From positions 1 to 56,089 of the forward strand of contig JAJRPO010000031.1 of assembly GCA_024280735.1 (NCBI GenBank): a DNA stretch of 56,089 nucleotides, read 5' to 3'. The DNA is from Alphaproteobacteria bacterium. GTDB taxonomy: Bacteria; Pseudomonadota; Alphaproteobacteria; Rhodobacterales; Rhodobacteraceae. Within the stretch, counting starts at the first letter, position 1. Each line of letters opens with the position of its first letter. Made by a program: the position numbers and the translations under genes. This document shows positions 37,245-56,089 of this stretch, one piece after another. Below the pieces are notes generated by a model. It was not told the DNA's origin. It did no database searches and saw only the letters and a program-made list of their open reading frames with translations.

Positions 37245-37948
37245 CAGTCAGCCTTGGTTTTGAACAGAATTTTCTGCGCTTCTTTGGATGTCGGGGCTTG
37301 TCGCATATCCGCCGCCACATCGCGCCCTTTAAACAGGGCGGGGCGTGCTTTGCAACGGTCCAGCCACAATTTCATATTTGGGAATTTGGTGATGTCTTGT
37401 TCTTGGCGTTCCCACAGGCAGGCCCAGGACCAAATGGCCATATCTGCGATAGAATAGTCACCGCAAATAAAATCGCGCCCCTCCAGCCGCCGATTTAGCA
37501 CACCATACAGCCGCCCAGTTTCCGCGCGGTACCGATCTTGCGCATAAGGCAACACCTGCGGCGGGTCCATTAACGGCGCATAGGTCAGGAAATGATGCGT
37601 TTGTCCGGCCATCGGCCCTAGGCCACCCATCTGCCACATCAACCATTCGTCAATCTCGACCCGCTCGCGCTCCGAGTTGCCATAGAACTTGCCTGTCTTG
37701 CGCGCCAGATATTGCAGAATCGCCCCGCTCTCGAATACTGAAATCGGTTTGCCATCCGGCCCGTCGGGATCAACAATTGCTGGCATCCGGTTATTGGGCG
37801 CTATTTTCAGGAAATCCGGCTCAAACTGTTCGCCTTTGCCGATGTTCACCAGCTTAACTGTATAAGGCAGGCTCATTTCCTCCAAAGCTATGGAAATTTT
37901 CCAGCCGTTGGGTGTGGGCCAATAATACAGCTCTATCGGTTCTTGCAT
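37244..37948 (-). CDS. Ure2p/YfcG-like glutathione S-transferase
   Basis: The 234-residue protein has an N-terminal thioredoxin fold (IELYYWPTPNGWKISIALEE) with NRMPAIVDPDG and FESGAILQYL at the glutathione site. A helical C-terminal domain follows (WLMWQMGGLGPMAGQ, ICGDYSIADMAIWSW). The TPNGWK motif is that of the YfcG/YghU group, which has disulfide-bond reductase activity in E. coli. It is followed directly by the TerB-like gene. Confidence 0.88.
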   Translation of the reverse strand: MQEPIELYYWPTPNGWKISIALEEMSLPYTVKLVNIGKGEQFEPDFLKIAPNNRMPAIVDPDGPDGKPISVFESGAILQYLARKTGKFYGNSERERVEIDEWLMWQMGGLGPMAGQTHHFLTYAPLMDPPQVLPYAQDRYRAETGRLYGVLNRRLEGRDFICGDYSIADMAIWSWACLWERQEQDITKFPNMKLWLDRCKARPALFKGRDVAADMRQAPTSKEAQKILFKTKAD

Positions 37949-38852: not shown

Positions 38853-38986
38853 GTTCCAACCCTTTGTTCTGCCCGTGGTTACTGGCATAAATCAGCCGGA
38901 TTACGATTTCATGAACCCGCGCCAAAAAATTGCCATGTTTTTAGTTGCGGGAATTGACCTGCGCAGCTGTTTCCCTTATTCAATCC

Positions 38987-39040
38987 CCGTGGCGATTTGA
39001 AACCGGATTGTGGGCCACGTTAAAATTCCACTAAAAGGTC
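38987..39040 (+). promoter_or_regulatory. SAM-II riboswitch upstream of metZ
   Basis: CGTGGC (38988-38993) pairs with GCCACG (39014-39019) as P1. The conserved GATTTG follows the 5' arm, CCGGATTG lies in the loop, and TTAAAA..CCACTAAAAGG forms the 3' pseudoknot strand. This is the SAM-II pattern seen before met genes in alphaproteobacteria. A terminator hairpin follows 14 bases later. High SAM should lower metZ expression. Confidence 0.82.
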
Positions 39041-39054
39041 GCGGGCAATAATGC

Positions 39055-46062: not shown

Positions 46063-46497
46063 ATGCAAACACTTACCGCCACTTGGCCGTTCTGGGCCGT
46101 CCTCGCCGCCATATTCGCAGCCCTTACCGCCATACTCGCCAAACTCGGGGTGGCGGAGGTTCCCAGCAACCTTGCCACCTTGATCCGCACCCTTGTGGTC
46201 GTCGCCGCCTTGTTGCCGCTGATCTGGTTCACCGGAGAGGCCGCGGGTATTGGCGCGGTCTCGGGGCGCTCTTGGTTGTTCCTCACCTTGTCAGGCCTCG
46301 CAACCGGTGCCTCATGGCTGTGTTATTTCCGCGCGCTACAGCTCGGCCCCGCCAGCAAGGTTGCGCCGATTGATAAATTGTCGATCGTTCTGGTGGTGAT
46401 ATTCGCCGCCCTGTTCCTTGGCGAGAAACTGTCCCTCACCGGATGGTTTGGTGTCGCCATGATCGGCGTGGGCGCAATCATGGTCGCGGCGGGTTAA
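46063..46497 (+). CDS. half-size EamA/DMT-family transporter
   Basis: The 144-residue protein has five hydrophobic segments, beginning WPFWAVLAAIFAALTAILAKLGV, and the EamA closing motif SKVAPIDKLSIVLVVIFAALFLGEKLS followed by GWFGVAMIGVGAIMV (blocks). This is a single five-helix EamA unit, which normally works as a homodimer. The substrate is unknown. Confidence 0.8.
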   Translation: MQTLTATWPFWAVLAAIFAALTAILAKLGVAEVPSNLATLIRTLVVVAALLPLIWFTGEAAGIGAVSGRSWLFLTLSGLATGASWLCYFRALQLGPASKVAPIDKLSIVLVVIFAALFLGEKLSLTGWFGVAMIGVGAIMVAAG

Positions 46498-46573: not shown

Positions 46574-46674
46574 AAAAAAATTGGGAGGACACTGGTTGCG
46601 GGAAGGTAACCTGACCACGCCTTGGCGGGTCTGCGTGTCCTCCCAGTATAAGAGAGCAGGGAGGATTGCTCTTT
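46574..46674 (-). ncRNA. strong candidate small RNA with a CCTCCC loop
   Basis: On the minus strand the 5' hairpin pairs AGAGCA (46672-46667) with TGCTCT (46658-46653) around loop ATCCTCCC. The 3' half is a 10-bp stem, GGGAGGACAC (46644-46635) with GTGTCCTCCC (46592-46583), followed by AATTTTTTT at 46582-46574. An exposed CCUCCC loop is typical of anti-Shine-Dalgarno sRNAs in alphaproteobacteria (CcsR/cuckoo-type). A near-consensus promoter lies directly upstream. No ORF is present. The 46498-46921 interval carries no other gene. Confidence 0.7.
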
Positions 46675-46680
46675 CGATAT

Positions 46681-46710
46681 ACTATATGCTGCAATGCGGC
46701 ATCAGGTCAA
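46681..46710 (-). promoter_or_regulatory. promoter of the CCTCCC sRNA with palindromic operator in its spacer
   Basis: On the minus strand TTGACC (46710-46705), 18 bases, TATAGT (46686-46681). The spacer contains TGCCGCATTGCAGCA (46702-46688), a near-palindrome built of TGC/GCA half-sites. Confidence 0.6.
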
Positions 46711-46773
46711 GCGGGTGCGGCGTTTTTACGCCGATATTCCTGTAACTGCTTTACATCATACACTTAAATTATA

Positions 46774-46784
46774 CTGCAACGCAG
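46774..46784. promoter_or_regulatory. second TGC/GCA palindrome
   Basis: CTGCAACGCAG is a perfect CTGC-N3-GCAG palindrome, the form described for PhaR sites in Paracoccus. On the minus strand it follows a TATAAT at 46773-46768. Together with the copy in the sRNA promoter it marks a probable common operator. Confidence 0.45.
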
Positions 46785-46921
46785 CATTGTCGCACCTCTG
46801 ACAGCCCGTCACGCGATGGTGACACGGCTTGTTTTGCCTGTGATTCCCGATCGCGCTACCTTTAGGACATCCCCGAAAGGGGCATTATGCTCCTTTCTTG
46901 AACCAGTATAGGAGAATCCCC

Positions 46922-47230
46922 ATGTTTAAACGTATCGCAACCGCCGCCCTGATCTTCGGCATGGCCGCCACAGCACCCCCAGCACTGGCCCAAAGCGCCT
47001 GCGCGCCACGTGACAAGATCGTCTCGCAACTTACTGATAAGTATGGAGAAGTCAGTCACGGCGTTGGCCTGCAATCCGGCACAAAATTGGTCGAAGTCTG
47101 GTCCTCCAAACGCACCGGCAGCTGGTCCATCCTTGTCACCCACGCCAGCGGATTAAGCTGCATTCTGGCGACCGGCAAAAACTGGACCCCGAACCCGAAA
47201 TTCGCCCTCGCAGGGGACCCAGCCGCGTGA
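46922..47230 (+). CDS. small exported protein of unknown function
   Basis: The start at 46922 has AGGAG upstream. The 102-residue product has a signal peptide ending PALAQ (about residue 24). The mature part begins SACAPRDKIVSQLTDKYGE and later has VTHASGLSCILATGKNW, so two cysteines may form a disulfide. It resembles short periplasmic proteins that are common in rhodobacters. I cannot name the family. A CCCC-gaaa-GGGG hairpin lies in the leader at 46871-46882. Confidence 0.7.
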   Translation: MFKRIATAALIFGMAATAPPALAQSACAPRDKIVSQLTDKYGEVSHGVGLQSGTKLVEVWSSKRTGSWSILVTHASGLSCILATGKNWTPNPKFALAGDPAA

Positions 47231-55869: not shown

Positions 55870-56089
55870 CTGTTTTTAGATTAAGTGCAGGCCTCTGTTG
55901 CCAAAGAGTTTTGCCCCTTTGGCAAAATCTCCTGCCACCGATGTGATTAAGTGCAGGCTTCTGTTGCCAGGTGCCTGCGAACCCCGCCAGTCCCGGCTAG
56001 GGGAAAGGACTTAAGTTTTCGGTATTAGGTACTGCTTACGCAGCAACTGCAACCGGAGCATTGTTGTCATTTGCAACTAGCTTAAATGA
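55870..56089 (-). ncRNA. ssrA: tmRNA (ssrA), coding portion, cut by the window edge
   Basis: On the minus strand 56074-56039 encodes the tag ANDNNAPVAVAA with stop TAA at 56038-56036, an alphaproteobacterial proteolysis tag ending in AA. Downstream lie CCCCTAGCCGGG and two 24-base pseudoknot-like segments (55968-55945 and 55902-55879) differing by one base. No T-arm or CCA end follows, which agrees with the circularly permuted two-piece tmRNA of alphaproteobacteria. The acceptor half would lie beyond 56089. The tag rescues stalled ribosomes with SmpB. Confidence 0.88.

Follow-up and report, generated by a model that had tools for sequence, protein, structure and literature searches.

On the minus strand of the window, i.e. 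the whole 56,089-nucleotide stretch of Rhodobacteraceae DNA that was analysed, a predicted sRNA of about 100 nt is encoded at 46574-46674, and it seems, with a probability of roughly 70%, that this is a stand-alone sRNA gene of Amylibacter or a nearby Rhodobacteraceae lineage, which has a phasin-type promoter repressed by PhaR and produces a PHB-induced anti-Shine-Dalgarno RNA. PhaR couples PHB granules, in which carbon is stored, to gene expression. As judged by sequence comparison, the sRNA gene is real and lineage-specific, with a PhaR operator of the phasin type in its promoter, and it is likely, by analogy with RNAs described elsewhere, that its product is induced by PHB and directed against Shine-Dalgarno sequences. 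From precedent we infer PhaR binding, release by PHB, the use of Hfq and anti-Shine-Dalgarno action; the links between operator and PHB, and between loop and translation, are likewise putative.

Anatomy and distribution of the gene

Read on the minus strand from 46710 to 46574, the locus consists of TTGACC, an 18-bp spacer, TATAGT, the RNA of about 100 nt and a T7 end. The TTGACC-18-TATAGT promoter that the original prediction had placed on this strand was found at 46710-46681 (-35 box TTGACC at 46705-46710, with TTGAC at the equal position in 4/4 carrier genomes; -10 box TATAGT at 46681-46686, assigned from the promoter scan and the layout kept in the carriers), and no other promoter-like site occurs within the 601 bases scanned. 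Shuffled sequence yields 0.6 promoter-like sites, the hexamers by themselves not being beyond chance. From a putative start 7 nt past the -10 box, assigned on anatomy and conservation, the RNA opens with a 5' hairpin, AGAGCA-AUCCUCCC-UGCUCU (46653-46672, minus strand), whose six pairs are invariant in four genomes. Its anti-Shine-Dalgarno-like loop AUCCUCCC (46666-46659) is the exposed CCTCCC loop that had been expected, and is kept in the four genomes, although only the CCUCCC core is invariant (4/4) and the flanks vary (AU, C, A). Further downstream, the 5' arm of a closing stem, UGGGAGGACAC (46635-46645; TGGGAGGACAC in DNA letters, assigned from fold and alignment), pairs with the 3' arm GUGUCCUCCCA (46582-46592; GTGTCCTCCCA in DNA letters), enclosing two small hairpins on the same strand (46613-46631 and 46594-46611), the second of which has a loop with CUUCCC (UCCUCCC in G010). 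The T7 tail of the intrinsic terminator was read from the sequence at 46574-46580. Both the closing stem and the seven-T tail are thus present as predicted, although the stem comprises 11 bp instead of 10. The simple terminator scan accepts loops of 3-8 only, which is why the sRNA terminator is absent from its list. Of the traits of an Hfq-dependent trans sRNA, its own promoter, a hairpin and an intrinsic terminator with a U run are found here. The flanking genes are an EamA-type gene (46063-46497, plus strand; PF00892) and a gene (46922-47230, plus strand) whose small product has a signal-like start and matches no Pfam family, and as no minus-strand gene follows directly downstream, the sRNA is not a leader. 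No Rfam family fits it. The window also contains a SAM_alpha riboswitch (38979-39054, plus), an end-truncated alpha tmRNA (55950-56089, minus) and a tRNA (563-636, plus).

A blastn search with the 236-bp module against 101 genomes gave five hits, four of them genuine (the window, G010, G029 and G015), with E values of 3e-29 to 3e-35 in the three other genus genomes and identities to the window module over promoter, hairpins and T run of 75% (G010), 82% (G029) and 78% (G015, the copy of which is cut by a contig end). The fifth hit (G048, E 0.0068) lies within coding DNA and was dropped as spurious. The module is hence carried by 4 of the 33 genus genomes, with the promoter layout alike in all, and the same four were retrieved with the pattern TTGAC-N3-ATGCNGCNTTGCAGCATATAGT, which allowed up to 3 mismatches, used 0 and gave no match in the reversed control. 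Covariance model R1 recovers these carriers as well, by construction, having been built from them; the weak score of G015 is due to the truncated locus, and a match in G025 (E 0.92) was taken as chance. Across 394 family genomes the covariance search gave no strong match outside the window, the partial matches being at E 0.03 and 0.09.

It could be argued that there is no gene at all, and that a chance promoter happens to stand beside a long inverted repeat, as the carriers are few (4/33) and the promoter scan alone is near chance. Such a coincidence is scarcely credible, given that promoter, hairpins and T run are 75-82% identical in three genomes, two of which have a different upstream gene: the small-protein neighbour is common to the window and G010, but in G029, and by reading also in G015, a transporter-like ORF takes its place. 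Moreover, seven other genomes have a well-placed orthologue of the small-protein gene, and within 520 bp of it there is neither an operator nor CCTCCC or GGGAGG; a single one of these loci (L114) has a partial operator match (12/15). Because of the few carriers, and of these orthologous loci without CCTCCC or GGGAGG, the RNA is, on comparative grounds, a lineage-specific module; its absence from 29 of the 33 genus genomes means that it is not essential to PHB control.

The spacer palindrome and phasin promoters

The spacer is filled by a palindromic, PhaR-type operator, TGCCGCATTGCAGCA (46687-46701, minus strand), which abuts the -10 box and fits 14 of the 15 positions of the 15-mer TGCYGCRTTGCAGCA. 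A copy of the palindrome had been claimed at 46774-46784, and a second site was indeed found at 46772-46786 (TGCTGCGTTGCAGTA on the minus strand; 13/15), 85 bp from the proximal operator. Ten 15-mers in the 56-kb window score at least 12/15, and the top two are both in the sRNA promoter; the strict palindrome pattern, expected 0.02 times per random window, was seen once.

The same 15-mer (at least 12 of 15 positions) stands upstream of each of the 16 phasin starts that the genus phaR loci yielded (13 of 22 loci, the other nine having no phasin match in the stretch examined). For the family, 60 phasin upstream regions were picked from PF09361 hits, one per genome, and 58 have the site; the two without it (L199 and L226) were kept in the denominator. 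A TTG-box, the operator and a -10 box are laid out as in the sRNA promoter in 56 of these 58, and two or more sites occur in 52. The operator of the sRNA gene is the element of the phasin operators, which gives strong comparative support to the PhaR-like control and the tie to carbon storage that had been proposed. In genus phasin promoters 28-29 bp mostly separate the two sites, as against 84 or 85 bp in the sRNA promoters (4/4 genomes); the latter spacing corresponds to about eight helical turns, which would allow a DNA loop. It is kept although the intervening DNA is unaligned in the blastn hit of G029.

Whether the palindrome is bound by PhaR or by another regulator has to be considered, since the 71%-complete window genome has no match to the PhaR family PF07879 (nor to the phasin family PF09361), some strict sites are found within coding sequence, and the Bradyrhizobium 12-mer TGCRNYGCASMA fits the operator of G010 but is missed in the other three carriers. 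In fact, at the 35 genus loci with a strict palindrome, 26 of the sites lie inside mechanical ORFs of at least 100 aa, and the one strict site of G015 is in a coding region (its sRNA operator fitting the looser pattern only), so that the strict palindrome alone is not proof of PhaR control. Another regulator is nevertheless quite unlikely, as the palindrome is what precedes the phasin genes next to phaR, in genus and family, and the core YGCRNYGCR, which excerpts of PMC12542648 give as that of the S. meliloti PhaR site, is within 4/4 sRNA operators. Of the carriers, G010, G015 and G029 encode PhaR (PF07879); the strict sites of G010 number four (three phasin promoters and the sRNA) and those of G029 two (one phasin and the sRNA), with 0 in the reversed control of either genome.

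A common intergenic PhaR-type palindrome was also noted upstream of a non-phasin gene (product MSLNAVRPWRN...) at L069, L087 and L094 (in G004, G031 and G016, respectively).

Fold, loop and possible targets

The sRNA (46675-46574) folds at -41.8 kcal/mol, compared to a mean of -23.4 for shuffled sequences (z -5.7; 0 of 200 shuffles equal), and the homologous RNAs of G029 and G010 reach z -4.0 and -6.8. Together with the conservation in other genus genomes, this bears out, by sequence comparison, the claim of a stand-alone, terminated sRNA gene. In the sRNA alignment 98.8% of the pair cells are paired and nearly all pairs are invariant; a two-sided change occurs at one pair only (CG to AU, in the first inner hairpin) and is equalled by 114 of 500 shuffles, so covariation is no proof of structure. 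The invariant loop, stem arms and T run point to constraint on the sequence.

It had also been suggested that the RNA switches between two folds by pairing of the loop with GGGAGG. When this pairing is forced in the three full-length RNAs, the closing stem beats it by 14.4, 10.9 and 15.0 kcal/mol, which does not agree with a switch in the finished molecule; the alternative is favoured in the nascent chain only, where prefixes of 42-72 nt of all three RNAs (from 36 nt in one) have the loop:GGGAGG hairpin as their lowest-energy fold. In these folding models the switch is at most a transient state, and the minimum-energy folds suggest that CCUCCC would be accessible once the sRNA is complete and masked while it is still being made.

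That the flank of the loop core varies hints at generic Shine-Dalgarno pairing rather than at a single mRNA. Phasin mRNAs were tried as favoured targets and are unsupported, their duplex energies with the loop being ordinary: among 124 starts, five of six phasin start regions rank at the 42nd percentile or weaker, and phaP2 of G029 is the sole phasin start in the best 11%. An MmgR-like brake on phasins by the window RNA would be possible but is not supported by these calculated energies. The best start for the loop in the 56-kb window (-16.2 kcal/mol, one genome) belongs to a glutathione S-transferase-like gene at 37948 (minus strand), which has GGGAGGAUU ahead of its ATG; its start region, AAAGGGAGGAUUCACAUG, and the sRNA loop, AAUCCUCCC, are perfect complements.

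The phaP1 leaders of G015 (L038, ~430-450) and G029 (L041, ~450-470) begin with a hairpin of their own, GGCGG-UCCUCCC-CCGCC, and that of G010 has a stem at the equal position without CCUCCC. That the sRNA arose from a phasin promoter and leader was considered and dropped, as just 5 of the 58 phasin leaders taken without selection have CCTCCC and the first-seen CCTCCC leaders were an effect of the search pattern.

A PhaR-controlled promoter could also serve an RNA with a different mode of action; as a sponge, for instance, it might sequester another RNA or an RNA-binding protein by means of its C-rich loops. With CCUCCC alone invariant the RNA shows no seed for a particular mRNA, there is no enrichment of phasin starts, and the phaP1 leaders of G015 and G029 carry their own UCCUCCC-loop hairpin, all of which would fit; on the other hand, CU-rich loops of alpha-proteobacterial sRNAs (NfeR1, AbcR) are reported, in excerpts of PMC7143759, to act on Shine-Dalgarno regions, and we consider a sponge unlikely. 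According to the anti-Shine-Dalgarno reading, PhaR would, without PHB, occupy the spacer palindrome and block RNA polymerase, perhaps aided by the distal site 85 bp upstream. As PHB granules form they would bind PhaR, and the sRNA promoter would open together with the phasin genes. The RNA of ~100 nt would then fold such that the closing stem hides the GGGAGGA strand and CCUCCC is left open in the 5' loop, which would pair with GGGAGG-type Shine-Dalgarno sequences and lower the translation of a set of mRNAs during carbon storage. If this is true, the carbon reserve of the cell may tune protein synthesis through RNA.

Relation to MmgR and other known RNAs

In the literature examined, as far as its excerpts go, MmgR is the sRNA described in the PhaR-PHB circuit. 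In S. meliloti it is a 77-nt, Hfq-dependent sRNA with an anti-Shine-Dalgarno motif in its first loop (PMC7143759, PMC8401924; see also PMC9049629), which keeps PhaP1/PhaP2 and PHB in check and is itself repressed by PhaR (AniA); PhaR shifts mmgR promoter DNA in EMSA (PMC12542648), its site being placed between -35 and -10 (PMC8401924), all according to excerpts of these papers. No PhaR-controlled sRNA of Rhodobacterales was found in the literature searched, from which subscription papers were mostly out of reach, and a word search of the Rhodobacterales sRNA papers PMC4809877 and PMC5107571 for phasin, suhB and hydroxybutyrate gave nothing.

A family-wide search for the operator followed by CCTCCC matched 60 of the 394 genomes, with 10 matches in the reversed control, and many of the matches are phasin promoters or adjoin protein starts. 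In G277 it found TTGACA-ATGCTGCGGTGCAGCAT-TATATA followed by a short anti-Shine-Dalgarno RNA, and blastn found similar RNA bodies in four other genera (four of nine matches, in G183, G290, G053 and G441, were left out as promoter-only or partial). The resulting five mmgR-type RNAs (G277, G033, G334, G459 and G369) share the anti-Shine-Dalgarno motif UUCCUCCC, and in four of them YGCRNYGCR, the PhaR core, lies in the spacer region of the promoter. With Rfam model RF00519 three are above the gathering score of 41 (64.5, 64.1 and 60.4 bits) and G277 is below it (35.3), and the RNA of G369 is nearer to SorX (44.4 bits vs 46.6) than to mmgR (22.1). The PhaR-mmgR wiring of Sinorhizobium thus appears, from these sequences, to extend to mmgR of Rhodobacteraceae.

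Three further loci were noted. At L102 (G005:C36, 1389-1265, minus) an ar14-like RNA with three CCUCCC-type hairpins scores 49.4 bits against a gathering score of 58.8, with a strict PhaR-type palindrome ~110 bp upstream, between the RNA and a LysR-like gene. At L070 (G027:C36, ~1490-1310, minus) a PhaR-type palindrome precedes a terminated RNA with two UUCCUCCC stretches, which adjoins a DUF1127 ORF (PF06568), as at ccaF1-CcsR loci (CcsR1 giving only 21.5 bits). At L153 (G247:C1, from 1501, plus) a PhaR-type operator is followed by a hairpin with a AUCCUCCC loop and a G+C-rich, terminator-like hairpin; this RNA of ~80 nt has no Rfam match, and G247 is a lead.

A wider idea, which we hold as a tentative and rather doubtful one, is that PHB-gated anti-Shine-Dalgarno RNAs form a recurrent circuit with more than one origin, with phasin-type PhaR promoters placed before unrelated CCUCCC RNAs, such that the granule surface, by binding PhaR, would set the translation of many mRNAs, and that the nascent window RNA would mask its own loop with GGGAGG until terminated. 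Its members would be the mmgR types and, in one Amylibacter-like lineage, the window RNA, and possibly the ar14-like, DUF1127-linked and short RNAs of L102, L070 and G247. Another RNA, unrelated to MmgR, behind a phasin-type operator in Rhodobacteraceae, together with the PhaR-type sites on mmgR-family RNAs there, would establish regulation by RNA as a general branch of PHB signalling, for which the PhaR-type RNA loci are a testable list.

Like MmgR of Sinorhizobium (alpha-r8; RF00519 suhB/mmgR), its nearest known counterpart, the window RNA is short and terminated and has an anti-Shine-Dalgarno motif, and its palindrome likewise lies in the -35/-10 spacer, PhaR repression itself being known for MmgR and, by analogy, probable here. 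This shared wiring and the exposed CCUCCC, as well as the occurrence of mmgR-family RNAs with PhaR-type sites in Rhodobacteraceae, could be taken to make the window RNA a diverged homologue of mmgR, which is nonetheless very unlikely: RF00519 has no match in 181 window bases at E up to 10, model R2 (built from the five mmgR-type RNAs) gives 4.9 bits on the window versus 61-94 on its own members, and model R1 finds none of the five. The mmgR-type RNAs of Rhodobacteraceae resemble the window RNA in their anti-Shine-Dalgarno motif and terminator, but their body is unlike it, with the motif between hairpins instead of in the 5' loop. CCUCCC-type motifs in hairpin loops are also shared with alpha-r14/NfeR1 (RF02344) and with cuckoo/CcsR RNAs; however, ar14 has three hairpins with CCUCCUCCC loops where the window RNA has one CCUCCC loop, RF02344 gives 9.9 bits against its gathering score of 58.8, and CcsR1 (RF02791) has no match in the same 181 bases at E up to 10. 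In contrast to MmgR, the window RNA carries its motif in the loop of a 5' hairpin and ends in a branched terminator with a GGGAGGA arm. The spacer palindrome shows a likeness of wiring and not homology, and the window RNA, as judged from its sequence, is outside the mmgR family: the same wiring before a different RNA.
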